Shown here in pieces: positions 8,599-26,629 of a stretch of DNA of 64,000 nt (position 1 is the stretch's first letter; the number at the start of each line of letters is the position of its first letter). This stretch comes from SAR86 cluster bacterium (GTDB lineage Bacteria > Pseudomonadota > Gammaproteobacteria > Magnimaribacterales > D2472), in contig CP097973.1 of assembly GCA_023703655.1 (NCBI GenBank), positions 540,170-604,169 of the forward strand, in the 5' to 3' direction. A program made the position numbers and the translations under genes. Under the pieces are notes generated by a model, which was not told the DNA's origin, made no database searches, and worked only from the letters and a program-made list of their open reading frames with translations.

Positions 8599-8663
8599 GG
8601 ACAAAAAATTTATTCTCAAATTTTAACCTATATGTCACATTCCTAATATACTGTTTAAACATT

Positions 8664-10380: not shown

Positions 10381-10381
10381 A

Positions 10382-10969: not shown

Positions 10970-11012
10970 AATCAAATTATCGACAAATGTTTAGATAATT
11001 ACAAATAAAATT

Positions 11013-11038
11013 ATTAAACAACCAATAAATTGTTTAAT
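11013..11038. promoter_or_regulatory. Inverted repeat, candidate TetR operator
   Basis: Perfect 9-base arms, ATTAAACAA at 11013-11021 and TTGTTTAAT at 11030-11038, separated by 8 bases, in the 144-base gap between the TetR gene and the divergent TonB receptor gene. The size and symmetry suit a TetR dimer site. No GC-rich stem or T-run makes it look like a terminator. Operator function is inferred from position. Confidence 0.45.
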
Positions 11039-11058
11039 TGTCACAAGGTTTTTATTAT

Positions 11059-11092
11059 CTGTAACAACAATGACATATTTTATTTTTATATT
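11059..11092 (+). promoter_or_regulatory. Candidate Pho box with -10 element
   Basis: CTGTAAC (11059-11065), a 4-base spacer AACA, then ATGACAT (11070-11076) gives the 7-4-7 direct-repeat layout of a PhoB site; each half matches the CTGTCAT consensus at 5 of 7 bases. TATATT at 11087-11092 follows 10 bases later, the spacing expected when a Pho box replaces the -35. In an AT-rich genome this match could be chance. Confidence 0.3.
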
Positions 11093-11113
11093 TAAATCTA
11101 CATAGGAGTAAAT

Positions 11114-13639
11114 ATGAAAAATCGTTCTACTTTATTACTTTGTTTCTTATCTACAAATCTTTTATTAGCACAAGAAGAAGCTGTTGAAGAGGTTGTTGTT
11201 ATAGGAACAAAAGCTAGTCTTATTTCTGCAATTGAAAAACAAAGACAATCAAATTTAATTGTGTCAGTTGTAGATTCTGATGCTTTAGGTGATTTTCCTG
11301 ATACCACTGCAGCTGAAGCAATCCGAAGACTATCTGGTATTTCAGTTGAAAATGATCAGGGTGAAGGCCGATATGTAAATATAAGAGGTATATCTGGAGA
11401 TCTTAATTCAATTGCTGTTAACGGTGCTCTTGTTCCAGCTCCAGAGGGAGGCAGAGCTGTAATGCTTGATGGTCTGCCAACAGAATTGCTAGATTCAATA
11501 GAGGTCTATAAGTCTTTAACAGCAGATAAAGATGCGGACTCAATTGGTGGAAGAATAGAGTTTAATACTAAAAGAGCTACTTCAATTGACGGAACACTTT
11601 TAAAATTTAAAGCAGATACTTCTTACAATGAACAATCAAAAAATTCAGATAATCCAAAAATGGCTTTTACCTATGGTTCAATGATTAATGAAAATGTTGG
11701 TCATGTTCTTGGAGTTACTTACGCTAGTAAACAGATTGTTACCTATAACAACGAAACAGGTTTTCCTGCATGGGATACAGATAATGGAAACATTTTTCTT
11801 GATGATGATTGGGAAATGAGATTTTATGATTTAACAAGAGAAAGAACAGGTGTTACATATGACATCGATATGATGATAGATGACGATACATCAATTTATG
11901 CAAATTTTTTATATAACAAATATGAAGATGATGAGTTAAGGAATAAAGAAGAATTTGGTTCTCTCAGAACTGGAAATGTATTTGCAGGCTCAAGTGAGAT
12001 TAATAGAATTAGAAGGGATGCTGAAGTTAGAAAAAGAATAGAAACACGTGATATTAGAACGGTTATATTGGGTGGTGAGACGTTGATTAACGGTTGGTAT
12101 ACAGAAGTGCAATTCAGTCATTCTTATGCTGAAGAAAATGATACAGATAATGTCGACGTAACTTTTAGAAGTAACAGAATTGATACTGATGATTGTGGAG
12201 GACCTTGTGGCTTATTTACCTATCAAGATCCTCAAAAAGTTGGTTTATCTCTCTCATCATATGCTCAGGGAGTGCTTTATGCTGATTTAAATGTTGATGC
12301 GTGGGAAGAGGATTGGAGTCTTATAGAAGATACTGAAACAGCATTTAGCATAGATATGACAAAAGATGGATTTACATTTATGAATGTTCCAACAACAGTA
12401 AAGTATGGTTTTAAATATAGGTCTAGAGAGAAAAAAGGCGATAGCAATCAAATAGAAGTTGATGATGATGATGTGCAAGCTTTACTTCAATCTGAATTTG
12501 GACCATACACAAGATCTTGGCCATTTCCTGGACAAAAATATGGCCCTCATGCTGATGAACATCTTTTGTATGCAAGAAAGGGTCAATACACTGGCGGTCC
12601 GGACTATGATAATTTTGAAGAAGACTTTACAACTAATGAAGATATCACAGCGTTATATTTAATGGGTACAATGGAGTTTGATAAGGCAGTCGTAATAGCA
12701 GGTATCAGAGTTGAAGATACTGATTTTGATACTCTTGGATATAATGACGGTGATGTAAATGATGTTTTAACAGCATCAAAGAGTTACACATTTGTCTCGC
12801 CAAGTTTAAATGTTAAATATTTCTTAGATGATCAAACTATCATTAGAGGTGCAATATGGAGAGCATTATCTAGACCTGGTTTTGGTCAAGCAAACTTAAT
12901 AGCTGATATAACAGAAAGAGATGATGGTAATTACAGAGGTGAAATGGGTAATCCGGATCTTGATCCTTATGAAGCAACCAATTTTGATTTATCTATTGAA
13001 TATTATGGTGATAGCTCATTTGCATCATTTGGATATTTTAAGAAAGATATTGAAAATGCAATCTACCCACTCGCAGTTGCTAACACAACTGTAAATGGTT
13101 TGTTGTTTGATGAATTATTAACTTATGTAAATACAGATGACTCCGATGTCGATGGCTTTGAATTAAATATATTCCAAGAGTTAAATATGTTGCCTGCACC
13201 TTTTGATGGTTTGTTTTTGTCAATGAACGTAACTAAAACTGATGGAAAATCATCTTTAGATGTGGATAATGGAACTGTATCATTTCCATTTAGAAAACTA
13301 GCTGAGGATGTTTCAAATATTTCAATAGGGTATGATAAGAATAAATTTGATATAAGGTTATCAGCTGTTTCAAGATCACCATATCTGGATTACCTTGCAG
13401 ATGATGATAGTGAAACAATTCAAGAGGATTTAGATAATAATAATATTAGGTATACTGATGATCACACACAAATTGATTTTAATCTTAAATATGAGATTAA
13501 TAAAAATTTGAGTCTTAAATTTGATCTTAATAACATAACTGATGAACCAGAATTTTACTACTGGGGTACCCCCGACAGATTATCTCAATATGACGAGTAT
13601 GGCACGACAGTATCTATTGGCCTTAGATATACCTACTAA
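11114..13639 (+). CDS. TonB-dependent outer-membrane receptor (phytase-linked)
   Basis: An 841-residue TonB-dependent receptor. A signal peptide (MKNRSTLLLCFLSTNLLLAQ) is followed by a TonB-box-like EEVVVIGTKASL, a plug domain (about 45-150, with AIRRLSGISVEND, YVNIRGISGDLN and a SIGGRIEFNT end) and a barrel ending in SIGLRYTY with an aromatic last residue. The plug resembles the subfamily common in Caulobacter/Xanthomonas and marine groups that takes up carbohydrates or organic ligands rather than siderophores. The ATG at 11114 has a good AGGAG site. It is immediately followed by a phytase, so I infer that phytate or another phosphorylated organic compound is its ligand. Upstream carry a possible TetR operator and Pho box. 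Confidence 0.92.
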   Translation: MKNRSTLLLCFLSTNLLLAQEEAVEEVVVIGTKASLISAIEKQRQSNLIVSVVDSDALGDFPDTTAAEAIRRLSGISVENDQGEGRYVNIRGISGDLNSIAVNGALVPAPEGGRAVMLDGLPTELLDSIEVYKSLTADKDADSIGGRIEFNTKRATSIDGTLLKFKADTSYNEQSKNSDNPKMAFTYGSMINENVGHVLGVTYASKQIVTYNNETGFPAWDTDNGNIFLDDDWEMRFYDLTRERTGVTYDIDMMIDDDTSIYANFLYNKYEDDELRNKEEFGSLRTGNVFAGSSEINRIRRDAEVRKRIETRDIRTVILGGETLINGWYTEVQFSHSYAEENDTDNVDVTFRSNRIDTDDCGGPCGLFTYQDPQKVGLSLSSYAQGVLYADLNVDAWEEDWSLIEDTETAFSIDMTKDGFTFMNVPTTVKYGFKYRSREKKGDSNQIEVDDDDVQALLQSEFGPYTRSWPFPGQKYGPHADEHLLYARKGQYTGGPDYDNFEEDFTTNEDITALYLMGTMEFDKAVVIAGIRVEDTDFDTLGYNDGDVNDVLTASKSYTFVSPSLNVKYFLDDQTIIRGAIWRALSRPGFGQANLIADITERDDGNYRGEMGNPDLDPYEATNFDLSIEYYGDSSFASFGYFKKDIENAIYPLAVANTTVNGLLFDELLTYVNTDDSDVDGFELNIFQELNMLPAPFDGLFLSMNVTKTDGKSSLDVDNGTVSFPFRKLAEDVSNISIGYDKNKFDIRLSAVSRSPYLDYLADDDSETIQEDLDNNNIRYTDDHTQIDFNLKYEINKNLSLKFDLNNITDEPEFYYWGTPDRLSQYDEYGTTVSIGLRYTY

Positions 13640-13643
13640 AGCA

Positions 13644-14690
13644 TTGCAAACTCAATTTAAAGCCAGCCTTGTGCTGGCTTTATTATTGTTGTTTGCCGTT
13701 TCATGCTCTCAAGATCCAAATATTTATGCCAGTTATGAAACTCCTCCTGTCATCACTGCAGAGGATGCTGCGGACGACCCAGCTATTGTTATTAATTTTG
13801 ACAATCCACCTAATTCATTAATCTTCGGAACAGACAAAAAATCAGGCGTTTATTTATATGATCTAGAGGGCAATGAATTAAGCTATGCGCCATTGGGCAA
13901 CATAAATAATATTGATGTTCGTCAACTTAATGATCAAGTATTTGTTACAGCAACCAACAGAAGCATTCAGGCTATAGAGTATTGGGTCTTCAATCAAAAT
14001 GATTTTTTTAATACAAGCAATCATGCTGATATTTTTTCGACAGCCATTAGAACGTCAACCACATTATCTGCAATAAATATTTATGGTATTTGCATGGGAT
14101 TAATTAACTCTGCTCCAGTTGCCTTTGTCACTGAGGACATGGGACCAAGCGTTGAATTGTGGACTTTAGACAATTCTACTTTGGTTGGAACCTTTGATAA
14201 TGGGGGTGAGTCAGAGGGCTGTGTGTTTGACGATGAAAATCAGGCTTTATTTATTTCTGAGGAAGAAACCAATGGAGTTTTAAAAGCTTATGACCTCTCT
14301 ATAGAATTTCCATTCGAGTCACCATTTATTGTTGATTCTCGTGAAGGAAATATTGGCGGAGATCCAGAAGGGGTGGCCTTATACAAAACTTCATTAACCG
14401 ATGGGTATATTGTCCTCTCTTCTCAGGGCGATAACAAATATAATCTATATAATAGAAATGCACCTTATGCCTTTATCACCAGTTTTCAGATTTCAGATAA
14501 GGATGGTGGTATTGATGGAACATCTGATACCGATGGTATTTCTGTTTCAAGTTTTAATTTTGGTGGCGAGTTTTCTAAGGGCCTGATGGTAGCTCAGGAT
14601 GGTTACAATTATGATGGCGATGAACTCATGAATCAAAACTTTAAAATTATTTCCTTCAAAGAAGTCTTAAAGAAAACTAATTTAGATTAA
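13644..14690 (+). CDS. 3-phytase, beta-propeller phytase family, lipoprotein
   Basis: A calcium-dependent beta-propeller phytase, releasing phosphate from inositol phosphates. The hallmark DDPAI segment appears soon after the signal, followed by repeated blade motifs with SGVYLYDLEG, ESEGCVFDDEN, EEETNGVLKAYDL, GDPEGVALY and GTSDTDGI. I place the start at TTG 13644, four bases after the receptor stop, because this yields a compact lipoprotein signal with a lysine, a hydrophobic run and lipobox AVSC (348 aa); the frame is open further upstream to 13542 inside the receptor gene, and ATG 13599 would give a 15-residue longer leader. No clear ribosome binding site is seen for any of these. It was probably acquired or exchanged: its G+C is visibly higher than the receptor gene. 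A hairpin overlaps its first codons. Confidence 0.85.
   Translation: MQTQFKASLVLALLLLFAVSCSQDPNIYASYETPPVITAEDAADDPAIVINFDNPPNSLIFGTDKKSGVYLYDLEGNELSYAPLGNINNIDVRQLNDQVFVTATNRSIQAIEYWVFNQNDFFNTSNHADIFSTAIRTSTTLSAINIYGICMGLINSAPVAFVTEDMGPSVELWTLDNSTLVGTFDNGGESEGCVFDDENQALFISEEETNGVLKAYDLSIEFPFESPFIVDSREGNIGGDPEGVALYKTSLTDGYIVLSSQGDNKYNLYNRNAPYAFITSFQISDKDGGIDGTSDTDGISVSSFNFGGEFSKGLMVAQDGYNYDGDELMNQNFKIISFKEVLKKTNLD
13659..13690 (+). terminator. Terminator-like hairpin inside the phytase leader
   Basis: A perfect 9-base stem, AAAGCCAGC (13659-13667) and GCTGGCTTT (13673-13681), with loop CTTGT, followed by a T-rich but interrupted tract (ATTATTGTT). It begins 20 bases after the receptor stop codon, the usual place for an intrinsic terminator, yet it lies within the codons of the phytase signal peptide. 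It could end receptor transcripts or attenuate the phytase. Confidence 0.6.
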
Positions 14691-15526
14691 TTTAAATTAT
14701 TTTTGTTTGCTGTAATTTCATGTGCATAAGTTTCATAAACTTCTACAAACTCAGGATGAGTTAGTATCCAAAACTCCTTGCTTTCAATTTTTTTAAAAAC
14801 AATCGTAGCTAAGTCTTCAGGACTCATGCCTTCTTTAACGCCATCGGCAAGCCATTGAGCATTGTTCTTCGCGCTTTCGTGTTGGTCAATTGAAGCCTCA
14901 TCAAGGGCTAGGCCAAGGTGATCTCTGTCTATGATATTGGTTTGAACCAATCCAGGGCAAAGCACAGACACCCCAACCTTATCATTGTCTGCTAGATCCT
15001 CATGCAAGGTTCGGGTTAAACCCACAACTGCATGCTTGGTCGTTGTATAAGGAGCAAGCGCAGGGCCAACAATGATACCTGCCATAGATGATGTATTGAT
15101 AATGTGACAGCGTTCTTGGCTAGCAACCATCTCATCAACAAACAGATTTAAGCCATAAATCACACTCATTAAATTTACATCAATAATTCGTTGCCAGTTT
15201 TTTTGGTCTGCTTTCCATGCTCTACCTTCTAAAAAGATTCCTGCGTTATTAAATAGGAAATGAACTGTGCCAAACTCACTTTCAATTTGTTCTTTCGCTT
15301 TTGCAAAGTCTTCTAAGTTAGATACATCACACTGGATGATCATGGATGGACAATCTGCCATCAGGCTATGAGTCTCACTTAAACCATTTTTGTTGAGGTC
15401 CATTAAGACTACATTCATTTGAAGTTTTGCAGCATGCAATGCTAAGCCTCTACCAATTCCACTGGCAGCACCAGTGATTAAGACAGTTTTATTTGTAAAA
15501 ATATCAGCTTGCAAGATATCCGCCAT
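14687..15526 (-). CDS. SDR-family oxidoreductase
   Basis: A classical SDR of 279 residues: TGAASGIGRG cofactor motif near residue 20, NNAG, catalytic Ser in NTSSMAG, and the YTTTK active-site pair. Length and C-terminal extension (a PEDLATIVFKKIE segment) fit the SDR members acting on hydrophobic alcohols or ketones. Start is ATG 15526; a TTG one codon upstream is also open. The head overlaps the last 23 bases of the upstream SDR, so the two are probably co-transcribed, and it converges on the phytase with a 4-base overlap. Its G+C is noticeably higher than that of its neighbour (sampled 60-base lines reach 47-50%), like the phytase, which suggests a shared foreign origin. Confidence 0.9.
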   Translation of the reverse strand: MADILQADIFTNKTVLITGAASGIGRGLALHAAKLQMNVVLMDLNKNGLSETHSLMADCPSMIIQCDVSNLEDFAKAKEQIESEFGTVHFLFNNAGIFLEGRAWKADQKNWQRIIDVNLMSVIYGLNLFVDEMVASQERCHIINTSSMAGIIVGPALAPYTTTKHAVVGLTRTLHEDLADNDKVGVSVLCPGLVQTNIIDRDHLGLALDEASIDQHESAKNNAQWLADGVKEGMSPEDLATIVFKKIESKEFWILTHPEFVEVYETYAHEITANKNNLN

Positions 15527-16271
15527 CAATCGGAATGTATGATCCAGTTATATATGATGAATCGTTGCTAGCAAGAAAATAGATCAAATTAGCTATTTCT
15601 TCAGGCTGTCCAAATCGCTTTAGAGGAATTCTACTGTTCATTAAATCAATAATCATTTTGTCATCTTTTATATCTTCAACCATTGGTGTTTCTACTGCAC
15701 CCGGTCCAATCGCATTGGCCCTAAGATTAAAAGATGCATAATCTTGTGCAATTGATTTAGTAAGACCAACTACACCATGTTTAGTAGCACTGTATACAGC
15801 CTGGGCAGCACTTGCTCTTTTTCCCATAATCGATGAAATATTAATTATTGAACCACAAGAAAGTTTATTATCTAAAAATTGTTTCATGAACTCTTTACAC
15901 ATTAAAAAAGTGCCAGTTAAATTGATATCAATACATTTTTTCCAATCATTAACATCATAGTCATGTAAAGCATTCAACGGGGGACTGATGCCTGCACAAT
16001 TTACAAGAATGCTAACATTTTTTTTAATTTCACTAATTTGTTTAAATCCATTGATGATTGAATCATGTGAAGTAACATCTACTTGAAAAAAATTATGATA
16101 AGTATCTGATTTAATGCCATCTTTAAAAGATTTTTCCATGTCATTATTTATATCAAATACAAAAGTTTCTATCCCTTTATCAAGAAATTTTTGGGTTGCT
16201 GCTAAACCAATTCCAGATGCTCCACCAGTAACGATTGCAACTTGATTTTTTAATCCTATTTCTTCGGTCAT
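15504..16271 (-). CDS. SDR-family oxidoreductase (FabG-like)
   Basis: A 255-residue classical SDR with TGGASGIG near residue 15, NCAG, Ser in NISSIMG, and YSATK; the C-terminus SSYITGSYIPIDGGY is the standard FabG/3-hydroxyacyl type ending. Such enzymes oxidise or reduce 3-hydroxy/3-oxo groups, including on CoA esters. It is divergent from the acyl-CoA synthetase at 16297, with 25 bases between start codons, and precedes another SDR. The context suggests a dehydrogenase step of the CoA-ester degradation cluster, but the substrate is not visible. Confidence 0.9.
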   Translation of the reverse strand: MTEEIGLKNQVAIVTGGASGIGLAATQKFLDKGIETFVFDINNDMEKSFKDGIKSDTYHNFFQVDVTSHDSIINGFKQISEIKKNVSILVNCAGISPPLNALHDYDVNDWKKCIDINLTGTFLMCKEFMKQFLDNKLSCGSIINISSIMGKRASAAQAVYSATKHGVVGLTKSIAQDYASFNLRANAIGPGAVETPMVEDIKDDKMIIDLMNSRIPLKRFGQPEEIANLIYFLASNDSSYITGSYIPIDGGYLAS

Positions 16272-16296: not shown

Positions 16297-17952
16297 ATGC
16301 ATACTGATCCCGACATAAATTACTTAACAAAGGAAAATCCTTTCTTTGAAATTGGCATTGAATCAGTTTTAGGGATAGAAATGCAAGTTTTTAAAAATAG
16401 ACCTAAAAATCTTGGTTCGTTTATCGAATTATCAAAAAATCACGACCAAAATATCTATTTGATTACTGAACATAAATCAATTTCATTTTCAGAGCATGAA
16501 AAATGTGTCATAAAAGCGATGGGGCTTCTAAGAGATAAATACGATGTTCAGCCTGGTGATAGGGTTGCTATCTATGCTGCCAATTGCAGTGAATGGATTA
16601 TATTTTTTTGGGCAACAGTATCTTTGGGTGCCATAGCATGTGGACTTAATGGATGGTGGAATGGAAAGGAGGCTATGAAAGCATTAGATGACGCTGAACC
16701 AAAGATTTTATTATGTGATAAAAAAAGATTCGAACGGATTACTGATTATAAGGGACCTTATCTCACATTTGAGGATATTGATTTTGATTTAATAGAACAC
16801 TCCGATGTATCAATTCATCCTTCTGATGAGGATGACTGCGCCTGTCTTCTTTATACAAGTGGCACCACAGGTAGTCCAAAAGGGGTAATGACTTCACACC
16901 GATCAATGATCAATAACACCATGCTGCAGCTTTTACAAGGTGCTGCTGTTTCAATGAGAAGTACAAGACTTGGTACCGACTGGACTGTAAATAAGCCAAC
17001 CAGTTTACTTACCTCACCTTTATTTCATGTATCTGGATTATCAGCTGGAGTTGTAACTGCGTTGTTTGCTGGAACTACCACTTACATATATGAGGGAAGA
17101 TTTGATCCTCAAAACATACTTAGAGTTATAGACAAATATAAAATAACATCATGGGGTGGAGCCGTTCCTACAGCTTTAAAAAGAGTTTTAGATGAAGCAC
17201 CAAATCATAATTTTGATTATGAAAGTATGCTTGTTGTTGGTGGTGGTGGCGCACCAATGCCTGAAACATTAATTGCAAGAACGAAACAAATTTTTAAAAA
17301 TGTTGAACATAACTTTGGTTATGGTTATGGACTTACTGAATCAGGAGCTATAACTGTTGTTAATTGGGGAGATGACCTCAACAACTTTCCAAGATCACCT
17401 GGTAAACCAATGCCAACAATTGAAGTAAAGCTCATTGATGACGATGGTAATGAAATTTTTGATGATGAAGTAGAAGGTGAAATTTGCGTAAGGAGTCCCT
17501 CTGTAATGCTTGGTTATTATAAAAATCAAATTGAATCAAAAAAGTCTCTAAACAAAGATCGCTTTTTAAGTACTGGTGATTATGGTTATCGTAAAGATGA
17601 TCTTTACTTTATCTCTTCCAGAAGAACAGATCTAATTTTACGCGGTGCAGAAAATGTTTATCCACAAGAAATAGAAATCCTTCTTGATCAATATGATGGT
17701 GTTGCAGAATCAGCGGTAATAGGTGTACCGCATGATGACCTAGGTGAAGAAGTAAAAGCCATAGTGGTACTTGAAAATAATAAAATTACCTTCGATGAGT
17801 TAGAATTATATCTTAAAGATAATTTGGCTTATTTTAAGGTTCCGAGCTTGTGGGAAAAAAAGTTAAAATCTTTACCAAGAAATGCTTCAGGTAAAGTCAT
17901 GAAACATGTTTTAATTGATCAATCTAAAAATAATTTCGTTGAAGATGAGTGA
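16297..17952 (+). CDS. Acyl-CoA synthetase (AMP-forming)
   Basis: A 551-residue ANL enzyme. Motifs: YTSGTTGSPKG near residues 186-196, YGYGLTESGA, STGDYGY, the RTDLILRGAENVYPQEIE hinge and the catalytic lysine in NASGKVMKH. It would activate the acid substrate of the operon that follows: DUF35 proteins, thiolase-fold proteins and crotonases, each overlapping the next or separated by only two bases. That contiguity makes it the likely entry enzyme of the pathway. It is not close in sequence to the paralogue at 2702 outside the shared motifs, so the two probably take different acids. Confidence 0.93.
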   Translation: MHTDPDINYLTKENPFFEIGIESVLGIEMQVFKNRPKNLGSFIELSKNHDQNIYLITEHKSISFSEHEKCVIKAMGLLRDKYDVQPGDRVAIYAANCSEWIIFFWATVSLGAIACGLNGWWNGKEAMKALDDAEPKILLCDKKRFERITDYKGPYLTFEDIDFDLIEHSDVSIHPSDEDDCACLLYTSGTTGSPKGVMTSHRSMINNTMLQLLQGAAVSMRSTRLGTDWTVNKPTSLLTSPLFHVSGLSAGVVTALFAGTTTYIYEGRFDPQNILRVIDKYKITSWGGAVPTALKRVLDEAPNHNFDYESMLVVGGGGAPMPETLIARTKQIFKNVEHNFGYGYGLTESGAITVVNWGDDLNNFPRSPGKPMPTIEVKLIDDDGNEIFDDEVEGEICVRSPSVMLGYYKNQIESKKSLNKDRFLSTGDYGYRKDDLYFISSRRTDLILRGAENVYPQEIEILLDQYDGVAESAVIGVPHDDLGEEVKAIVVLENNKITFDELELYLKDNLAYFKVPSLWEKKLKSLPRNASGKVMKHVLIDQSKNNFVEDE

Positions 17953-18397
17953 AAAAAATAAATCAGATATGCTAAGAGCACCCTTTAAGCTTGAATATGA
18001 TTATGAGAGATCAACCGGTCCAATCATTGGAAAATTTTTTGAGGGCTTATCAAATCAGCAAATACTTGGTACAAAGAATGGTGATAATGTTTATGTTCCT
18101 GCAGCTGAATTTGACCCCATAACATATGAACACTTAAGTGAGTTTGTTGAACTTCCTGAAACAGGTACGGTAAAGTCATTTACATGGATAGATCAGCCAA
18201 GAAAGCATCATTTAATAAATAAACCATTTGCTTTTGCATTAATCCAAATTGATGGAGCTACATCATCTATATTACATATGATTACAAATTGTAATGAGAG
18301 CGACATAGAAGTTGGGTCTAGAGTAAAAGTTTCCTGGTCAGAAGAAAAAACAGAAACTATTAAAGATATTAGTCATTTCGAGTTAATAAATGAGTGA
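17945..18397 (+). CDS. DUF35/OB-fold protein without zinc-ribbon cysteines
   Basis: A 150-residue protein related to the next gene. The N-terminal segment (APFKLEYDYERSTGPIIGKFFEGL) and the OB-fold part (TGTVKSFTWI ... FALIQIDGATSSILHMI ... GSRVKVSW) align with DUF35 proteins, but the zinc ribbon has been replaced: where CxxC pairs should stand it reads GTKNGDNVYVPAAEFDP, with no cysteines. DUF35 proteins bind acyl-CoA and serve as partners of thiolase-fold enzymes. I start at ATG 17945, which overlaps the synthetase stop by 8 bases; the frame also opens at 17915. It may be a structural partner of one of the two thiolase-fold proteins downstream. Confidence 0.78.
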   Translation: MSEKNKSDMLRAPFKLEYDYERSTGPIIGKFFEGLSNQQILGTKNGDNVYVPAAEFDPITYEHLSEFVELPETGTVKSFTWIDQPRKHHLINKPFAFALIQIDGATSSILHMITNCNESDIEVGSRVKVSWSEEKTETIKDISHFELINE

Positions 18398-18887
18398 AGA
18401 GAAGAAAGATCATTTTATTAGTCCAATATCTCTGGACTATAACTACACTGCAGGGGCTGCAACCACCAGATTTTTAAAAAAAGTTTCTGAAGGTAAAATT
18501 GTTGGCCAGAAATGTCCAAAATGTACAGCAGTGTATGTACCTCCACGAGGAAGTTGTCCAAGATGTGGTGTGGCAACTGAGGAGGAAGTTGAATTAGTTG
18601 ATAAAGGTAGTGTTGAGTCTTTTACTATTGTCCACATACCAATTCCTGGAAATCCAATTGTGCCACCATATGTATGTGCGATGATTAGGCTTGAAGGTGC
18701 CAACATTTCATTTCTTCATCTTATACAAGAGATTGATTTAAAAGATATTAGGATAGGCATGCGAGTTGAAGCTGTATGGAAAGATAAATCTGAATGGGAT
18801 ACAACACTTGAAAATATTAAATGGTTTAAGCCTTCAGGTGGAGATGATATCGATCCATCAGAATACAGATTTAAGGGCCCAGAATGA
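18390..18887 (+). CDS. DUF35 zinc-ribbon/OB-fold acyl-CoA-binding protein (ChsH2-like partner)
   Basis: A 165-residue DUF35 protein with the full zinc ribbon, Cys42-x2-Cys45 and Cys56-x2-Cys59, then the OB fold (GSVESFTIVHIP ... PYVCAMIRLEGANISFLHLI ... GMRVEAVW). Known relatives pair with thiolase-fold proteins: the DUF35 part of ChsH2 with Ltp2 in bacterial steroid side-chain retro-aldol cleavage, and the archaeal thiolase/HMG-CoA synthase complex. It overlaps the gene before by 8 bases and the thiolase-like gene after by ATGA. I infer that it channels or positions the CoA substrate for one of the thiolase-fold proteins. Confidence 0.88.
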   Translation: MSEEKKDHFISPISLDYNYTAGAATTRFLKKVSEGKIVGQKCPKCTAVYVPPRGSCPRCGVATEEEVELVDKGSVESFTIVHIPIPGNPIVPPYVCAMIRLEGANISFLHLIQEIDLKDIRIGMRVEAVWKDKSEWDTTLENIKWFKPSGGDDIDPSEYRFKGPE

Positions 18888-19939
18888 AAGATATTTACAT
18901 AATTGCTTATGCTCAAAATCCAATACTTGCCGATGCTAAAGCTGCAAATGAAGTAGAGCTTATTATGCCTGTCGTTCACGAAGTATTTCGTCAAACTGGT
19001 TTAAGTCAAAAAGATATCGATTTCACATGCTCAGGAAGTTGTGATTATTTGCAAGGAGCGGCTTTTGCTTTTGTTGAGGGTCTTTCAGCAATTCAAACCA
19101 ATCCACCAATCAAAGAATCCCATGTTGAAATGGATGCAGCTTGGGCCTTATATGAGTGCATGTTAAAAATAAGCTCAGGTGACACCGAAAGTGCTTTAAT
19201 TTATGGATTCGGTCGATCTTCACCTGGAAATTTGGATTCAATAATTTCCCTTCAAACAGATCCATATTATTTATCTCCATTATGGGTTGACAGGATTTCT
19301 TATGCTGCACTTCAAGCTAATACACTATTGCAACACGGAACCATTAGCCATGATGAGATGTATGATGCAATTGTTGAATCTATGGAGTTTGCAAAGTCAA
19401 ATCCTAATGCCTTAGTCAGTAATGCTCCCAGTAAAGAAGAATATGTAGCAGAGCAAAAACTATCTACTCCACTTAATAAATTTGATGTCGCTCCAGTTTC
19501 AGATGGTGCTTCGGCAATGATTATTTGTACAAAAGATTTTGCAAAAAATCTTAATCTAGATCATGTAAAGATAAATCAAGTTTGTCACAATATCGAGTCA
19601 TCAAATATTGGAACACGAGACTTATCTACTTCAACAAGCCTTTTAGATCTCTCAACAAAACTCAATCTTACAAATTTAAGTGTTGATATTGCTGAGCTTC
19701 ACTCTCAGTATAGTCATGAAATAGTTTTTCTTAAAAAATTGCTTGGGCTAGATAACACTTCGGTGAATGCATCAGGCGGCCCATTGTCAGGGAATGTCAT
19801 GATGGCTGCTGGATTAGACTGCATTGGAAAAACCTATGAGTATCTAAAATCTAAAGACGTTACGAATGGCCTTGCCCATGCAACGTCAGGCCCATGTTTA
19901 CAACAAAATATGCTTCTGCACATGGAGAGAGTTAAATGA
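18884..19939 (+). CDS. Thiolase-fold protein (lipid-transfer/SCPx-thiolase-like) lacking thiolase catalytic residues
   Basis: A 351-residue thiolase-superfamily member. Recognisable pieces are the first strand IIAYAQNPI, the EMDAAWALYECM segment, the APVSDGASAMII strand (the usual DGAAA region) and NASGGPLSGN near the C-terminus. The nucleophile motif and the GHPxG histidine are missing (the latter reads SGNVMMA), and the terminal Cys-x-Gly-Gly segment is changed to TSGPC. A normal thiolytic reaction is therefore unlikely; Ltp2-like retro-aldolases show similar losses. It is ATGA-coupled to both neighbours. It may be a catalytic aldolase or a non-catalytic subunit paired with the next gene product. 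Confidence 0.82.
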   Translation: MKDIYIIAYAQNPILADAKAANEVELIMPVVHEVFRQTGLSQKDIDFTCSGSCDYLQGAAFAFVEGLSAIQTNPPIKESHVEMDAAWALYECMLKISSGDTESALIYGFGRSSPGNLDSIISLQTDPYYLSPLWVDRISYAALQANTLLQHGTISHDEMYDAIVESMEFAKSNPNALVSNAPSKEEYVAEQKLSTPLNKFDVAPVSDGASAMIICTKDFAKNLNLDHVKINQVCHNIESSNIGTRDLSTSTSLLDLSTKLNLTNLSVDIAELHSQYSHEIVFLKKLLGLDNTSVNASGGPLSGNVMMAAGLDCIGKTYEYLKSKDVTNGLAHATSGPCLQQNMLLHMERVK

Positions 19940-21081
19940 TTGATGCTGCTGTTATTGGTGTAGGTCAAACTAAATATGATTCCAAAAGACGGGACGTTTC
20001 AGTAGGTGGTCTCGTAAGAGAAGCAATTGATAATGCTATGAAACACGCAAATGTTGATTGGGATGCGATTGATGCAGTAATACTTGGGAAAGCTCCAGAT
20101 ATGTTTGAGGGTATTATGATGCCTGAACTCTCATTAGCGGACGCCATTGGAGCAGTTGGTAAACCTGTGCTAAGGGTTCACACGGCTGGAAGTGTTGGTG
20201 GAAGCACTTCGGTGATTGCTGCTACCCATGTTACGTCTGGAAATTTTGATACAGTGCTTACTGTCACTTTTGAAAAACAATCTGAATCAAATGCAACATG
20301 GGCATTATCTCCAAAATATCCATATTCTCCTCATATTAATGCAGGTGCTGGCGGATATTTTGCACCATACATGCGAGAGTATATTCGTAGGTACAACGCA
20401 CCTGAAAATATTGGCTGGATAGTCGCAGCAAAAGATAGACAAAATGCATTAAAAAATCCATATGCTCATCTACAAATACCTAACATTGACGAAAAAATGG
20501 TTGCTGATACGCCAATGTTATGGGAGCCACTTAGATACTTAGAGAGCTGCCCATCCTCCGATGGAGCATGCGCTCTGGTTATATCTAATGAAAAACTTGC
20601 TAAAGGAAGAAAGGCTGCGTGGATTAAGGGTATGGCGGTTCGATCTGAGGGTACATTGTCAGCTGGAAGAGATGAAGTTAATCCTCAAGGTGGACAAGAT
20701 TGTGCTTCAGATATTTATAAGCAAGCTGGTATTTTAAATCCAAAAGATGAAATTGATTGCGCAGAAATATATGTCCCTTTTTCATGGTATGAGCCAATGT
20801 GGCTAGAAAATTTACATTTTTGTGATTTAGGTGAAGGCTGGAAATTAACTGAGAATGGAACAACAGCTCTTGATGGCGATCTTCCTATTAACATGTCGGG
20901 TGGTGTTTTATCATCCAATCCTATTGGTGCATCAGGTATGATCAGATTTGGAGAGGCAGCCTTGCAAGTTATGCATCAGGCAAATGAATATCAAGTAGAT
21001 GGTGCAAAATTAGCCATGGGGCATGCTTACGGTGGTGCATCTCAGTTTTTTGCGATGTGGGTTGTTGGTAACGAGAGGTAA
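19936..21081 (+). CDS. Thiolase-fold lipid-transfer protein (Ltp2-like, possible retro-aldolase)
   Basis: A 381-residue thiolase-superfamily protein closer to the SCP-x/lipid-transfer branch: AAVIGVGQTKY at the start, HTAGSVGGSTS where thiolases carry the nucleophilic Cys (Ser/Gly here), CPSSDGACALVIS, and SGGVLSSNPIGASG, in which the GHP histidine is Asn. The last active-site Cys is also absent (HAYGGASQFF, with a Tyr). These changes, together with the adjacent DUF35 gene, resemble Ltp2, which with ChsH2-DUF35 splits a beta-hydroxy acyl-CoA. Retro-aldol function is an inference from family knowledge. It is coupled by ATGA to the gene before and lies two bases before the crotonase. Confidence 0.85.
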   Translation: MIDAAVIGVGQTKYDSKRRDVSVGGLVREAIDNAMKHANVDWDAIDAVILGKAPDMFEGIMMPELSLADAIGAVGKPVLRVHTAGSVGGSTSVIAATHVTSGNFDTVLTVTFEKQSESNATWALSPKYPYSPHINAGAGGYFAPYMREYIRRYNAPENIGWIVAAKDRQNALKNPYAHLQIPNIDEKMVADTPMLWEPLRYLESCPSSDGACALVISNEKLAKGRKAAWIKGMAVRSEGTLSAGRDEVNPQGGQDCASDIYKQAGILNPKDEIDCAEIYVPFSWYEPMWLENLHFCDLGEGWKLTENGTTALDGDLPINMSGGVLSSNPIGASGMIRFGEAALQVMHQANEYQVDGAKLAMGHAYGGASQFFAMWVVGNER

Positions 21082-21083
21082 AT

Positions 21084-21881
21084 ATGGATACAAATCACGC
21101 AATTGTCGAAATTGATAAACATACATTGATAATCACGTTAAATCGCCCTGAAAAAAGAAATGCTCTTAGTCCGGGCATGCTCGTTACAGTCTACGAGGCA
21201 TGGAGACAACTTGATAATGATGATAATCTCAGATGTGCTATTTTGACAGGAGCTGGAGGTACTTTCTGTTCTGGAGCTGATCTGACAGCAATGAAAGGTG
21301 GGAATGAAGATTCCGAGATGATGAAAAAACTTGAAGAGATTCCTGACTTACATTGGCAAGCTCTTCTTAGACATAACAGACCGTGCAAACCTGTGATAGC
21401 TGCTGTTGAAGGTTTTGCTTTGGCTGGTGGTACAGAAATACTTCAAGGGACAGATATTAGAGTGGCTGGAAAGTCATCAACATTTGGTCTAACTGAACCT
21501 CAAAGAGGATTGTTTCCTTTAGGTGGATCAACAATAAGATTAAGACGTCAAATACCATATACACTTGCTGCTGAAATGTTATTAACAGGTAGAAGAGTGT
21601 CAGCTGAAGAAGCCTTGGATTATGGACTTATTGGTCATATTGTTGAGGACGGACATGCGCTCGAAAAGGCAAAAGAAATTGCTGAGAGGATATGTGACAA
21701 TGCACCACTATCTATTAAAGCAATTACAAAGTCACTTAGAGAATTCGATGAAAGTTTTCATGAAGTAGATGCGCTAAAAAAAGAAATTGAAATAGGGGAG
21801 CCTGTTTTTGCTAGTGAGGATACAATCGAAGGCTTGACAGCGTTTGCAGAAAAAAGAAAACCTATTTTTAAAGGCAAATGA
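21084..21881 (+). CDS. Enoyl-CoA hydratase/isomerase (crotonase) family protein
   Basis: A 265-residue crotonase: RPEKRNALSPGM, the oxyanion-hole segments GAGGTFCSGADL near residue 55-66 and KPVIAAVEGFALAGGTEI near 110, and a glutamate-containing GLTEPQRGLFPLGG. Crotonases hydrate, isomerise or cleave acyl-CoA. The strand order and length are canonical. It starts two bases after the thiolase-like gene and overlaps the second crotonase by ATGA. It would add water to the enoyl-CoA formed earlier in this pathway; no acyl-CoA dehydrogenase is in the window. Confidence 0.9.
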   Translation: MDTNHAIVEIDKHTLIITLNRPEKRNALSPGMLVTVYEAWRQLDNDDNLRCAILTGAGGTFCSGADLTAMKGGNEDSEMMKKLEEIPDLHWQALLRHNRPCKPVIAAVEGFALAGGTEILQGTDIRVAGKSSTFGLTEPQRGLFPLGGSTIRLRRQIPYTLAAEMLLTGRRVSAEEALDYGLIGHIVEDGHALEKAKEIAERICDNAPLSIKAITKSLREFDESFHEVDALKKEIEIGEPVFASEDTIEGLTAFAEKRKPIFKGK

Positions 21882-22615
21882 ATAAGCTACTGATTGAGGA
21901 TCATAATTCCTCAAAAATACTTACATTAAATCGACCTGATAAGATTAATGCTTTCGATGCAGAGTTATGGGGTCTTTTGGGTGGTACGCTCAATGCTTTC
22001 AGTGATGATGATGCTGTCAAGACTGTAATTGTCAAAGGCGCAGGTGGTAATTTCTCATCAGGCGTTGATCTTGCCAGCATGATGTCAGGCAATGGAAATG
22101 ATTATGAAAAACCTTTTGAGGATTGTATTGATGCATTAATGAATTTTAAAAAACCTTTGATTGCTTGCGCGGAGGGTATGGCAGTTGGAGGTGGCGCAAC
22201 CATATTATTACATTTTGACTATGTATTTTTATCTGACAATTTTAGACTTAAATATCCTTTTACCGAGTTAGGTTTAGTTCCAGAGGTTGGTAGCTCGTTT
22301 TTAATATATGACAAGCTAGGCTATCAAAAAGCATTTGATTTACTTACTACATCTGATTGGATAGATGCACATACATATTACTCGGAAGGTCTTGCTACAA
22401 AAGTTTGCAAAGATCCATTGACTGAGGCCATTAAATGTTCTGATTTAATCGAAACAAAATCTCAAGGAAGTCTTATTCAGACTAAAGCTATTTTAAAAGA
22501 GTTTCAAAAGGATAAATTATTACTTGCAAGACGCTTAGAAACAGAAGCAATGCAGAAATTGTATGGTTCGAAAGACAATCATGAAGCAGTAAAAAAATTT
22601 TTTGGAACCAAATAG
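21878..22615 (+). CDS. Enoyl-CoA hydratase/isomerase family protein
   Basis: A second, shorter crotonase of 245 residues: RPDKINAFDAELW, oxyanion segments GAGGNFSSGVDL and KPLIACAEGMAVGGGATI, then FTELGLVPEVGSS. The position of Glu in FTELGLVPE suits an enoyl-CoA isomerase or hydratase. It is only loosely similar to the preceding crotonase, so the two probably act at different steps. Start ATG overlaps the previous stop by 4 bases. It ends on the first base of the DedA start codon. Confidence 0.88.
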   Translation: MNKLLIEDHNSSKILTLNRPDKINAFDAELWGLLGGTLNAFSDDDAVKTVIVKGAGGNFSSGVDLASMMSGNGNDYEKPFEDCIDALMNFKKPLIACAEGMAVGGGATILLHFDYVFLSDNFRLKYPFTELGLVPEVGSSFLIYDKLGYQKAFDLLTTSDWIDAHTYYSEGLATKVCKDPLTEAIKCSDLIETKSQGSLIQTKAILKEFQKDKLLLARRLETEAMQKLYGSKDNHEAVKKFFGTK

Positions 22616-23121
22616 TGTCTTTTGAAAAATTACAGATCTTTCTGAACACAAATCCCGAATATGCTGGTTTAATAATTTTTTTGTTAGCTTTTGGTGAATC
22701 AATGGTCATAACAGGAAGCATACTACCAAGTGCAATCTTGTTTTCTGTCTGCGTATTTATATTTAATAGTGAGATTTTAAGCATTTATTTGATTGCATTA
22801 TTTGCCATGTTTGGATCTCACTTAGGTGACCTTGGCGGATTTTTTGTAGGAAAAACAATTGGACCAAATATTTTAAAAATGAGATTTTTTGAGAAACGAA
22901 GTAAGTTAATAGGCAGAGGTCAGAAATTTCTTGATAGATTTGGTGATTATGCTGTTATCTTTGGTAGGTTTGTACCAGCTATCAGGCCAATCGCTCCATT
23001 TTTAATCGGCCTATCAGACTTACGAGCAATAAGATTCTATAGAGCAGATATTATTGCTTGTCTATTGTGGGGTATAGCTTTAATATTTCTTGTACTTTCA
23101 GTGGGTAGCATATTCAAATGA
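22615..23121 (+). CDS. DedA-family membrane protein
   Basis: A 168-residue inner-membrane protein of the DedA/SNARE-associated family, thought to flip or transport lipids such as undecaprenyl phosphate or phosphatidylethanolamine. Features: FLLAFGESMVITGSILPS near the N-terminus, GSHLGDLGGFFVGKTIG, and the signature FGRFVPAIRPIAPFLIGL near residues 119-136. The start is GTG at 22615, which shares its first base with the preceding TAG stop. It overlaps the next small gene by 4 bases. It is smaller than E. coli DedA-type proteins (about 200-220 aa) but has all core motifs. Confidence 0.88.
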   Translation: MSFEKLQIFLNTNPEYAGLIIFLLAFGESMVITGSILPSAILFSVCVFIFNSEILSIYLIALFAMFGSHLGDLGGFFVGKTIGPNILKMRFFEKRSKLIGRGQKFLDRFGDYAVIFGRFVPAIRPIAPFLIGLSDLRAIRFYRADIIACLLWGIALIFLVLSVGSIFK

Positions 23122-23306
23122 GCATTTTAATAATTTCAATATTGACTATGATTGCGCTTCTATTTTTAGTAGTTCAATTATTAAAAGTTAATCAGACTAG
23201 TGGATTCCTAAAGATTTTACGTGATTTAATGATTGTTATTCTATCCTTAGGATTAACATTCTTGGTTTTTTATGTTGGATATAGACTTATGCGAGTATTT
23301 CTTTAA
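23118..23306 (+). CDS. Small two-helix membrane protein, unknown function
   Basis: A 62-residue protein with two predicted membrane helices (about 2-22 and 36-57) joined by a short basic/polar loop (KVNQTSGFLKILRD). I do not recognise the family. The 4-base ATGA overlap with DedA and the 1-base overlap with the HIT gene argue that it is really translated. It sits between a lipid flippase-like protein and a nucleotide-binding protein, which does not point to a job. Confidence 0.65.
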   Translation: MSILIISILTMIALLFLVVQLLKVNQTSGFLKILRDLMIVILSLGLTFLVFYVGYRLMRVFL

Positions 23307-23644
23307 TGGATGACTTATTTCTTAAAATTATTGATAAAGAAATTCCTGCAAACATCATTTTCGAAGATGAGGACATTCTTGCTTTTGAAGATATTAATCC
23401 ACAGGCTCCAACTCATATACTAATTATCCCAAAGAAACATATTGCTAAATTATCTGATGCAGATATTTCTGATCAAAAATTATTAGGTCATATGTTGATT
23501 AAAGCAAATGAAATTGCTGCGAATTTGAAATTGGATAATACCTTTCGTTTAGTTATAAATAATGGTGCAAATGCTGGGCAAAGCGTATTTCATCTGCATA
23601 TGCATCTTTTAAGCGGTAGAAGTTTTTCATGGCCACCAGGATGA
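23306..23644 (+). CDS. hinT: HIT-family nucleotide hydrolase (HinT-like)
   Basis: A 112-residue histidine-triad protein. The triad His96-Leu-His98-Met-His100 is present with the upstream NNGANAGQSVF segment, and the N-terminus FLKIIDKEIPANIIFEDED and the PQAPTHILIIPKKHI segment are typical of HinT. HinT enzymes hydrolyse aminoacyl-AMP and AMP-lysine. The start ATG shares a base with the previous stop, and its end overlaps the NTF2-like gene. The C-terminus is intact and of family length. Confidence 0.93.
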   Translation: MDDLFLKIIDKEIPANIIFEDEDILAFEDINPQAPTHILIIPKKHIAKLSDADISDQKLLGHMLIKANEIAANLKLDNTFRLVINNGANAGQSVFHLHMHLLSGRSFSWPPG

Positions 23645-24258
23645 ATTCCCTAGAAAAAAAAATCGATAAACTTGAATCAATTGAGGAAATAAAACAACTT
23701 GTTGCCAAATATGCTGTATCTCTTGATATGAGAGCAATAGATATGCATGTAAATTTATTTGTTGAGGATGTTAAAGTTGGAAAAGAGGGAGTTGGAAGAA
23801 AAGCGCTAAAAATTTGGGCTGACAAAACATTTAGAGATCAGTTTACAGGCACATCCCATCACATTGGCAATCATATTATTGAATTTATTGATCCTGACAA
23901 TGCACTTGGCCTATTGTATTCAAAAAATGAACACGAAACAGATAATGAATGGATCATTATGCAAATGTTGTATTGGGACGCATACAAAAGAGTAGATGGT
24001 ATTTGGTATTTTCAGAAAAGACTACCAATGTATTGGTATGCTACGGATTTAAATAAACCTCCACTTGGTTCAAAAAAAATGAGATGGCCAGATCAAGAAG
24101 CTTACGAAGGATATTTTCATGATCTATTTCCTACATGGAAAGAATTTTGGGATAGTAAATACAACAGGCATGCTGATGTCTCAACACCAGCTTTACCAAA
24201 TGAGTTTCTCAGAAAACTAAGAGGTGATAGTAAACCACCAAAAATTAAAGTTAGGTGA
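23641..24258 (+). CDS. SnoaL-like / NTF2-fold protein
   Basis: About 205 residues of the NTF2-like superfamily, starting with the helix SLEKKIDKLESIEEIKQLVAKYA typical of SnoaL_4 proteins and bile-acid dehydratase-like enzymes. The fold core is followed by a basic, aromatic tail (PLGSKKMRWPDQEAYEGYFHDLF) longer than in most relatives. I start at ATG 23641, which overlaps the HIT stop as ATGA; ATG 23629 is also open and adds four residues. A dehydratase or isomerase acting on the products of the upstream CoA cluster is plausible but not shown by sequence. Confidence 0.72.
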   Translation: MNSLEKKIDKLESIEEIKQLVAKYAVSLDMRAIDMHVNLFVEDVKVGKEGVGRKALKIWADKTFRDQFTGTSHHIGNHIIEFIDPDNALGLLYSKNEHETDNEWIIMQMLYWDAYKRVDGIWYFQKRLPMYWYATDLNKPPLGSKKMRWPDQEAYEGYFHDLFPTWKEFWDSKYNRHADVSTPALPNEFLRKLRGDSKPPKIKVR

Positions 24259-24349
24259 TTAAATAGGCTAAAATACCTAACAAGAAAACAAAACTCCCAA
24301 TAGCAATCATGAATGCTCCAAGATTAAATATTGTCTTTTTATCATCCAT
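24251..24349 (-). CDS. 32-residue single-helix membrane protein
   Basis: A very short gene: charged N-terminus MDDKKTIF, then one hydrophobic segment (about residues 10-30) ending in AYLIT. It is supported by a strong AGGAG ribosome binding site a few bases before ATG 24349, unusual for this AT-rich region. Function unknown. The head faces the metallo-beta-lactamase gene, and its end overlaps the NTF2-like gene by 8 bases. Confidence 0.5.
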   Translation of the reverse strand: MDDKKTIFNLGAFMIAIGSFVFLLGILAYLIT

Positions 24350-24369
24350 ACTCCTAATAATAAAAAAAT

Positions 24370-25395
24370 ATGAATACTGATACAAGACTAGTTTTTCCAT
24401 ATGAAGATGTTCCAAAAAATGGAACCATGCTAGAAATTGAAAATAATGTTCGATGGATAAGAATGCCATTACCCATGTCCTTGAATCATATAAATTTATG
24501 GTTAATTGGTGAATTAAATCAATCTACATTAATTGATACAGGAATGTATTATGAAGATGTAAAGAATGCATGGAATGATATTCTGGGAGAATCTGATATT
24601 AAACTTGAAAATATTATCGTAACTCATATGCATCCAGACCACATTGGGATGGCAGGTTGGTTATCCAGACATTTTCAAATTCCACTTTCAATGAGTAGAG
24701 GAGAATATTATCAATGCAGAGTATTAGCTTCGGATACAGGTGACAGAGTCCCAGAGGAGGCAATTAATTTTTATAAAAATGCTGGCCTAACAGATAACCA
24801 AATTGATGCATATGTTAAAAGATTTGGTTTCTTTGGATCAATGATCTCAACTCTCCCTGACTCATACAAAAGATTAAAAAATGGTGATTCTATCTCATTT
24901 GCTAATACTGATTGGTCTATTATTGATGGGTATGGCCATTCACCTGAACATATATGTTTGTATTCAAACGAAAAAAAATTATTGATTGCAGGTGATCAAT
25001 TATTACCAACTATCACATCAAATGTAGGAGTTTTTCCAACCGAGCCTTATGCAAATCCATTGGAAGATTGGTTGGATTCATGTAAAAAACTAAAAGATAT
25101 AGTTAGTGAGGACGCACTTGTTTTGCCATCCCATGGTAGGCCTTTTCTTGGAGCACATAAGAGATTAGATGCAATAATTAATCATCATGAAACAGCGCTT
25201 ACTAAATTGCACAATCTATTAGCTGAGCCTATGCGTTCAGTGGATACTTTTGAAGTGCTTTTTAAAAGAGAAATTGATGATACCAATTTACTGATGGCAA
25301 CTGGGGAGTCCTTAGCACATTTAAATTGCCTAATCGAAAGGGGTTTAGCAAAAAAATACTTTAAAAAGAATGTAGCATATTATGAGCAAGTCTAA
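24370..25395 (+). CDS. Metallo-beta-lactamase-fold hydrolase
   Basis: A 341-residue MBL-fold protein with the dinuclear-zinc motif His86-x-His88-x-Asp90-His91 in THMHPDHIGMAG, a later GHSPEHICLYS (third-histidine region) and AGDQLLPTI (bridging Asp). A further His lies in PSHGRP. The C-terminal helical region resembles members often annotated as thioester or lactone hydrolases next to CoA-degradation genes. It overlaps the MFS gene by 14 bases. The substrate is open; hydrolysis of a CoA thioester or lactone would fit the neighbourhood. Confidence 0.86.
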   Translation: MNTDTRLVFPYEDVPKNGTMLEIENNVRWIRMPLPMSLNHINLWLIGELNQSTLIDTGMYYEDVKNAWNDILGESDIKLENIIVTHMHPDHIGMAGWLSRHFQIPLSMSRGEYYQCRVLASDTGDRVPEEAINFYKNAGLTDNQIDAYVKRFGFFGSMISTLPDSYKRLKNGDSISFANTDWSIIDGYGHSPEHICLYSNEKKLLIAGDQLLPTITSNVGVFPTEPYANPLEDWLDSCKKLKDIVSEDALVLPSHGRPFLGAHKRLDAIINHHETALTKLHNLLAEPMRSVDTFEVLFKREIDDTNLLMATGESLAHLNCLIERGLAKKYFKKNVAYYEQV

Positions 25396-26629
25396 GCTCA
25401 ATCGAGTTGCTAAGTCATGGATAGCATATGATATGGGCAACTCAGCTTTTGCCACCACAGTTCTAGGTGCATTTTTTCCATTATTTTTCTCAAGTTATTG
25501 GGCAGGAGGCATGGATGAAATAACCATTACAAAAAACTATACAGCAGGATTAACCATCATAAATGTAATCATTTTAATTATGATGCCTATTATTGGTGCA
25601 ATTACAGATGTTAGGAGTTTAACTAAAACATTTTTTATTTTATTTACTTGTATCTCAAGTTTAACGGTTGGTTCATTTTATTTTATTGATTATGGTCAAT
25701 GGATCTTAGCGTTGTCTTTGTACGGTATTGCATTATTTTGCTTTGCAGCAAGCTTAGTGCTTTACGATAAAATTTTGTTATTTGTATCATCAAATGAGGA
25801 TGTAACCAAAATATCAGGATATGGATATGCTTTTGGTTATTTAGGTGGAGGCATACTTTTTGTTATTAATTCATTTATGGTTTTAAACCCATCATTCTTT
25901 GGCTTGCCAAGCGGAAGTGAGGGGGTAGTACTTGCTACGAAATGGTCTTTTGTCTCGGTAACCGTTTGGTGGTTAATTTTTTCAATGCCTATATTTATTT
26001 TTTATAGACAATTACCTTTTGAAACAGAGGGATCTTTTTCTGACGCTTTAAGACAAATATTTTCAACATTTAGACATATATCAGAGAATAAAAACATAGC
26101 TTTATTTTTACTTGCATTTTTCTTTTACATTGATGCAGTGCATACCATTATGCAACTTGCTGCAATGTTTGGTGATGGTATTGGTATTGATCAAAGCTCA
26201 ATAATATATGCATTAATATTAGTTCAATTCGTTGCATTTCCGGCTACATTATTTTGGTCATATTTTGGAAGTAGATATGGAGATAAAAATGTTATTTATT
26301 TAACAATATTCGTTTATTTGTTTGCATTATTTTTTTCATCAACTTTAAATAATGCTACAGATTTTTTTATCTTGGCTTTTTTTGTTGGTTCAATCCAAGG
26401 AGGTATACAAGCATCTTCAAGAAGCTTGTTTGCAAAAATTATTCCTGAAGATAAAGCAGGCGAATTATTTGGTTTTTATAATACTTTTGGTAGAGCTGGG
26501 TCTGTACTTGGACCGCTTCTTATAAATATTTTTCTATCATATTCAAATGACCTTAAAGTCGCACTTATCCCATTAGCGATTATTTTTTTAATAGGTCTGG
26601 TACTATTATATTTTGTAAAAGAAAGATGA
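25382..26629 (+). CDS. MFS transporter, UMF1 (Atg22-like) family
   Basis: A 415-residue protein with about twelve hydrophobic segments. The N-terminus VAKSWIAYDMGNSAFATTVLGAFFPLFF is the signature of the UMF1/Atg22-like MFS branch, with SRSLFAKIIPEDKAGELFGFY in the C-terminal half as its second landmark. Eukaryotic Atg22 exports vacuolar amino acids; bacterial substrates are mostly unknown. It overlaps the MBL gene before by 14 bases and the small protein after by 4. Confidence 0.88.
   Translation: MSKSKLNRVAKSWIAYDMGNSAFATTVLGAFFPLFFSSYWAGGMDEITITKNYTAGLTIINVIILIMMPIIGAITDVRSLTKTFFILFTCISSLTVGSFYFIDYGQWILALSLYGIALFCFAASLVLYDKILLFVSSNEDVTKISGYGYAFGYLGGGILFVINSFMVLNPSFFGLPSGSEGVVLATKWSFVSVTVWWLIFSMPIFIFYRQLPFETEGSFSDALRQIFSTFRHISENKNIALFLLAFFFYIDAVHTIMQLAAMFGDGIGIDQSSIIYALILVQFVAFPATLFWSYFGSRYGDKNVIYLTIFVYLFALFFSSTLNNATDFFILAFFVGSIQGGIQASSRSLFAKIIPEDKAGELFGFYNTFGRAGSVLGPLLINIFLSYSNDLKVALIPLAIIFLIGLVLLYFVKER

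Follow-up and report, generated by a model that had tools for sequence, protein, structure and literature searches.

A SAR86 operon predicted to encode an Ltp3-Ltp4 aldolase with two DUF35 subunits acting on C24-branched sterol side chains

The ltp3 and ltp4 genes have been reported to encode aldol-lyases that are required when the side chain of a sterol is branched, though not when it is straight (PMC6273163, PMC6678751). According to a review, C26 is first oxidised by Cyp125, and the product is activated with coenzyme A (CoA) by FadD19, desaturated, carboxylated at C28 and hydrated before the heteromeric Ltp3-Ltp4 aldol-lyase acts on it (PMC6678751). In M. tuberculosis the genes lie in the order Rv3515c (fadD19), Rv3516 (echA19), Rv3521 (annotated as conserved hypothetical), Rv3522 (ltp4) and Rv3523 (ltp3) (PMC6429209), and in a Mycobacterium phytosterol induces ltp3, ltp4, echA19 and fadD19 69-98-fold, with about 97-fold for ltp3 and ltp4 (PMC6593523). 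Here we describe four adjacent genes of a SAR86 cluster bacterium, found in a stretch of 64,000 nucleotides (the window; contig CP097973.1, positions 540,170 to 604,169 of the forward strand) that sits in a single-contig genome of 1.33 Mb, labelled G000. They belong to a family already known, Ltp3-Ltp4, and are not a new system or pathway; they probably encode the SAR86 version of the aldolase together with two DUF35 subunits, which would remove either the branch or the terminal part from C24-branched sterol side chains. This assignment is based on gene order, orthology, the loss of thiolase residues, a conserved Tyr and the co-occurrence with steroid genes, while the function of the orthologues is taken from the literature.

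Two further steroid aldolases with solved structures combine a thiolase fold with a DUF35 partner, namely Ltp2-ChsH2 (6ok1 in the PDB), with one thiolase-type and one DUF35-type protein, and the proteobacterial bile-acid aldolase Sal-Shy (9myr), in which Shy carries also a MaoC hydratase domain. Their catalytic residues are Tyr294 (motif YDHF) and Tyr344 in TcLtp2, and Tyr302 and Cys304 (motif YDCY) in CtSal (PMC12329534). A thiolase fold with a DUF35 partner is found also in the benzoylsuccinyl-CoA thiolase BbsAB (7pxp) and in the archaeal thiolase/HMG-CoA synthase complex (6esq), but these, unlike Ltp3-Ltp4, are true thiolases of other pathways.

The four core genes occupy positions 17945-21081 of the plus strand, where a sequence-only reading had placed two DUF35 and two thiolase-fold genes, and all four open reading frames (ORFs) were confirmed in place. 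They belong to a plus-strand operon with the order acyl-CoA ligase, DUF35a, DUF35b, Ltp4-like, Ltp3-like, Ech1 and Ech2, accompanied by a divergent pair of short-chain dehydrogenase/reductase (SDR) genes. Neighbouring core genes overlap by 4-8 bases, which suggests that they may be translationally coupled.

Relatives of Ltp4 are encoded in 545 stretches, 80 of which (named) were kept and supplemented with 10 SAR86 stretches, some contigs being present in both sets. The order DUF35a-DUF35b-Ltp4-Ltp3 on one strand is preserved in all 87 loci where all four parts were placed by tblastn, with the two DUF35 domains fused into one protein in 23 of them; the assignment of parts near contig ends (e.g. 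L091, L110) is less certain. The hosts comprise SAR86, Halieaceae, Spongiibacteraceae, Endozoicomonas, metagenome-assembled genomes (MAGs) of Sterolibacterium, a Myxococcota MAG and many Actinobacteria, which shows that this little-studied aldolase family is widespread well beyond the latter phylum. A scan of viral contigs gave no match. In Rhodococcus spelaei (L106) a ligase of the PRK07798 family is followed by EchA19 (438.8 bits with the equivalog model, cut-off 400), a fused DUF35a-b protein (323 aa) and proteins of the PRK07937 (643.8 bits, cut-off 419) and PRK08313 (715.5 bits, cut-off 514) families. This order matches that of M. tuberculosis, and thus PRK07937 is read as Ltp4 and PRK08313 as Ltp3, both identities resting on gene order. 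The maximum-likelihood tree places the window proteins within one Ltp3 group (support 100/100) and one Ltp4 group (99/99), both of which take in proteins from Rhodococcus, Prescottella and Saccharopolyspora and are set apart from the Ltp2-type protein and other SCP2-type thiolases, although the branches are long and the deeper joins unsure.

The SAR86 module thus shares with the actinobacterial Ltp3-Ltp4 (Rv3523/Rv3522) and Rv3521 both thiolase-fold subunits, the gene order, two upstream DUF35 domains, the EchA19-like neighbour and the zinc-less first DUF35, and differs in its host, in the separate genes for DUF35a and DUF35b (fused in the Rhodococcus-type loci that were read) and in the operon ligase, which is CasG-like instead of FadD19-type. 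The proposal that the doubling of the set and the loss of zinc mark a new degradation route was rejected, because both features are general in the family and known from actinobacterial phytosterol degraders. A chance cluster or a recent local duplication was rejected as well, since Ltp3 and Ltp4, and likewise DUF35a and DUF35b, remain separate families across phyla. Among the relatives, a contig labelled as a Klebsiella pneumoniae MAG (L060, CAMAXE010000001.1) holds an Ltp4/Ltp3/DUF35 cluster with 51% identity in Ltp4; this genome is probably mislabelled. The loci of Spongiibacter (L047:13071-14210) and Endozoicomonas (L065:5779-6903) contain a CaiB-family gene, which may encode an alpha-methylacyl-CoA racemase; such an enzyme would suit an alpha-methyl acyl-CoA substrate, e.g. 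sterol-26-oyl-CoA.

The Ltp3 subunit (19936..21081, +), the probable catalytic subunit of the aldolase, matches NF006180 with 641 bits (cut-off 514) and exhibits the thiolase fold already at the sequence level (E-value 1.4e-37 to 4yzo). The Ltp4 subunit (18884..19939, +) stays under the Pfam thiolase cut-off, yet its AlphaFold model (pLDDT 87, pTM 0.89) is a full thiolase fold, with 343 residues superposed on the 6esq thiolase (Z-score 42.9, root-mean-square deviation 2.1). Neither subunit retains the residues of thiolytic cleavage. As the sequence-only reading had noticed, the nucleophilic Cys and the His of the GHP motif are missing from both, being replaced by Gly85 and Asn328 in Ltp3, and by an Ala85 region without Cys and Asn304 in Ltp4. 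Conservation of these replacements is high: Gly85 is kept in 86/86 and Asn328 in 82/82 alignable loci, and Asn304 in 82 of 90 relatives, the remaining 8 having His. The accompanying claim that both lack also the final thiolase Cys had to be refined, since Ltp4 has Cys338 near that position (Cys in 78 of 88 relatives, Ala or Val in the others).

The motif Y279-V-P-F of Ltp3 is conserved with Tyr279 and Pro281 in 84/84 alignable loci each. Tyr279 corresponds to Tyr294 of TcLtp2 and to Tyr302 of CtSal, while Pro281 takes the position of Cys304, required in Sal, and of the HDCF Cys in SCP2-type thiolases; the conserved motif N328-P-I-G-A-S-G aligns, by its part N328-P-I-G, where the Ltp2-type protein has the counterpart of Tyr344 of TcLtp2. 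Hence only the first Tyr of the Ltp2 pair and the Tyr of the Sal pair are present. Since Tyr279 is kept and the partner residues of Ltp2 and Sal are replaced, the base would be retained and the acid must be another residue, and the alignment shows that the predicted Ltp3 active site differs from those of both solved steroid aldolases. Ltp4 possesses an invariant block of its own, S79-H-V-E-M-D-A-A-W-A, and His273 at the YDHF position (His in 56 and Tyr in 34 relatives), which suggests that it is under constraint, though probably not the main catalyst.

The OB-fold domain of ChsH2 (PF01796) is found above the Pfam cut-off in both DUF35a (17945..18397, +) and DUF35b (18390..18887, +); the start of DUF35a is the ATG at 17945, instead of the upstream TTG at 17915 in the ORF list. 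The zinc ribbon (PF12172, ligands Cys42/45/56/59) is present in DUF35b only, which matches ChsH2 (6ok1_B) with an E-value of 5.5e-9. DUF35a has a single Cys (Cys116) and none within the ribbon region, in agreement with the sequence-only reading, according to which one DUF35 lacks the ribbon. Its model (pLDDT 90) exhibits the DUF35 fold, with the DUF35 domains of Sal-Shy (Z-score 12.8) and Ltp2-ChsH2 (12.7) as the nearest solved structures; this and the retention of Tyr294 in Ltp3 bear out the parallel to Ltp2/ChsH2-DUF35 that had been drawn from the sequence. The DUF35a family is poor in Cys, with 0, 1 and 2 such residues among the first 75 aligned positions in 61, 25 and 3 of 89 relatives, respectively, and thus the loss of the ribbon is a trait of the subunit family and not specific to the window. 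Some relatives of DUF35b (L033-L112) have Asp as the fourth zinc ligand, and others appear to lack the ribbon cysteines too, in some cases perhaps by alignment error. As judged by distance correlations, DUF35a goes with Ltp4 and DUF35b with Ltp3 (partial r 0.72 vs 0.30 and 0.51 vs 0.35); this is only suggestive of such partnerships.

A four-subunit aldolase would agree with the published heteromeric Ltp3-Ltp4 aldol-lyase (PMC6678751). In the proposed pathway, a CYP125-type P450 would oxidise C26, an acyl-CoA ligase would form the CoA thioester, an acyl-CoA dehydrogenase would yield the enoyl-CoA, and an EchA19-like hydratase would hydrate the latter to a tertiary beta-hydroxy thioester. Such a compound is not oxidisable by ordinary beta-oxidation, hence the retro-aldol cleavage by the Ltp3/Ltp4/DUF35 complex, which would release propionyl-CoA or acetyl-CoA. 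Ltp3 with DUF35b is probably the catalytic subunit, with Tyr279 as the putative base, and Ltp4 with DUF35a its structural partner; the natural substrates are probably algal 24-alkyl sterols. The hydratase feeding the aldolase is probably Ech1 (21084..21881, +), which scores 344 bits against the EchA19 cut-off of 400 and whose counterparts are found near the module in most of the relatives that have sufficient flanking sequence. The operon ligase (16297..17952, +) is an AMP-forming acyl-CoA ligase with steroid-24-oyl-CoA synthetase CasG as the top NCBIfam model (516 bits, cut-off 750); it falls outside the FadD19-type family PRK07798, two members of which are encoded elsewhere in G000.

Steroid degradation in SAR86 has been reported before (PMC4810484), and several genomes of the Suzuki family carry hsaA,C,D, fadD3, kshA and kstD, with no mention of an aldolase (PMC11582366). 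Among 151 genomes of the order, Ltp4 (called at E-values below 1e-40) is present in 18, all of which have KshA_C (PF19298), vs 1 of the 133 others, an 82%-complete genome of genus g6 (G135). Both proteins are confined to the same five of 22 genera, a coincidence with odds of 1 in 26,334 (22 choose 5) under the assumption of independent genera, which are in fact related. A strong P450 type (scores over 222 bits) occurs in 17 of the 18 genomes, G135 being the only other listed genome to have it. In the ring-degradation cluster of G000 (near 899-918 kb), KshA is encoded by two ORFs and accompanied by a ligase similar to FadD3 (642.8 bits, cut-off 657), enzymes resembling HsaC, HsaD and HsaF, a thiolase, acyl-CoA dehydrogenases and a CoA-transferase pair; the two ORFs read as IpdA/IpdB match CoA-transferase only, the second just under the cut-off. 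All PDB matches of the catalytic part of KshA are 3-ketosteroid 9alpha-hydroxylases (2.9e-43). A P450 outside this cluster (L123) is closest to CYP125MRCA (1.6e-78), while the distinctive P450 encoded within the cluster (450 aa) has its best PDB match in CYP120 and does not resemble CYP125. With regard to a possible prior carboxylation of C28, the genome encodes one large carboxyltransferase of the acyl-CoA carboxylase type, which lies apart from the operon, in addition to two ORFs with the size of AccA/AccD. The module provides SAR86, abundant in the surface ocean, with defined genes for the attack on the C24-alkylated sterols made by many algae, a capacity that is thereby tied to a single sub-lineage possessing ring-degradation genes.

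The split of KshA into adjacent ORFs for the Rieske domain (134/149 aa) and the catalytic domain (288/279 aa) is seen in G000 (L121:10505-11772, about 900.5-901.8 kb of G000:C1) and in another SAR86 genome, G001 (L130:11898-13188); it looks natural, because the catalytic ORF has 281-290 aa in most relatives.

Several points weigh against the assignment to C24-branched side chains. For the window Ltp4, NF005924 is the best model by far, but the score of 380 bits remains below the cut-off of 419, which orthologues from SAR86 family f2 exceed (477-485 bits). The CasG-type ligase would suit a C24 acid equally well. Several NCBIfam scores in the ring cluster lie under the curated cut-offs, and therefore another polycyclic terpenoid may be the substrate. 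Family searches of G000, which is 92% complete, detected neither Ltp2/ChsH2 nor Sal/Shy, and hence no complete side-chain route of a known kind emerges. Formation of the complex, the roles of the subunits, the precise bond that is cleaved and the substrate used in nature are predictions for SAR86.

The same searches found only two DUF35 proteins, one confident MaoC protein and no further SCP2-type thiolase C domain in G000, and three genomes of the same genus (G030, G042, G145) likewise have just two DUF35 proteins. Could the complex then be a steroid aldolase acting elsewhere on the side chain (C22-C23 or C17-C20), in place of Sal/Shy or Ltp2/ChsH2? Such an activity, with which the CasG-like ligase would also accord, seems improbable, since Ltp3 and Ltp4 cluster with the actinobacterial C24-branch enzymes, apart from the Ltp2-type protein found in L129. 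Moreover, G001 and a further SAR86 genome, G144, possess igr-like operons (L126:5821-11955 and L129:11733-18207, not found in G000) with acyl-CoA dehydrogenases, two MaoC-like proteins, a P450, a DUF35 protein and an Ltp2-type protein with the YDAF motif (6.7e-78 to TcLtp2 in G144). As both genomes keep Ltp3 and Ltp4 alongside, these are not simple replacements. The SAR86 module itself, unlike the Ltp2-ChsH2 system, has no MaoC hydratase. It is a rather improbable extension that in the SAR86 genera without Ltp2/ChsH2 and Sal/Shy the Ltp3-Ltp4-DUF35a/b complex could be the sole side-chain aldolase, serving more than one cleavage position with a third active-site design among thiolase-fold aldolases, in which the conserved Tyr of YVPF would work alone, the residues that assist it in Ltp2 or Sal being absent.

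Cleavage of an acyl-CoA derived from a branched lipid or terpenoid other than a steroid, e.g. a beta-methyl-branched isoprenoid, would involve identical chemistry and accord with the heavy investment of SAR86 genomes in beta-oxidation (PMC11582366) and with the ring-cluster proteins under curated steroid cut-offs; it is nevertheless very improbable, given that KshA_C accompanies Ltp4 in all 18 of its genomes in the sample of the order, that the distinctive P450 is almost absent elsewhere and that G000 has a CYP125-type P450. That both thiolase-like proteins are ordinary active thiolases, as the fold and the Pfam thiolase matches could imply, is scarcely credible and was rejected on the catalytic residues: almost all relatives have other residues in place of the nucleophilic Cys and the GHP His, and Ltp3 has Pro281 at the position of the HDCF Cys.

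The remaining genes around the Ltp3-Ltp4 module include Ech2 (21878..22615, +), a second enoyl-CoA hydratase/isomerase conserved in SAR86 family f1, and SDR2 (15504..16271, -; PF13561), an SDR oxidoreductase that is probably a hydroxyacyl or hydroxysteroid dehydrogenase and adjoins the module in both SAR86 families having it. Downstream of the operon (22615-26629), DedA-like, HIT, SnoaL-like, metallo-beta-lactamase and major facilitator superfamily genes are kept with the module in family f1; none were seen in the non-SAR86 loci, and they are not assigned to it. On the other side (7762-14690) lie genes that by sequence resemble polyphosphate kinase 2, a phosphate permease, a TonB receptor and a phytase-like lipoprotein, possibly a phosphate-scavenging set.

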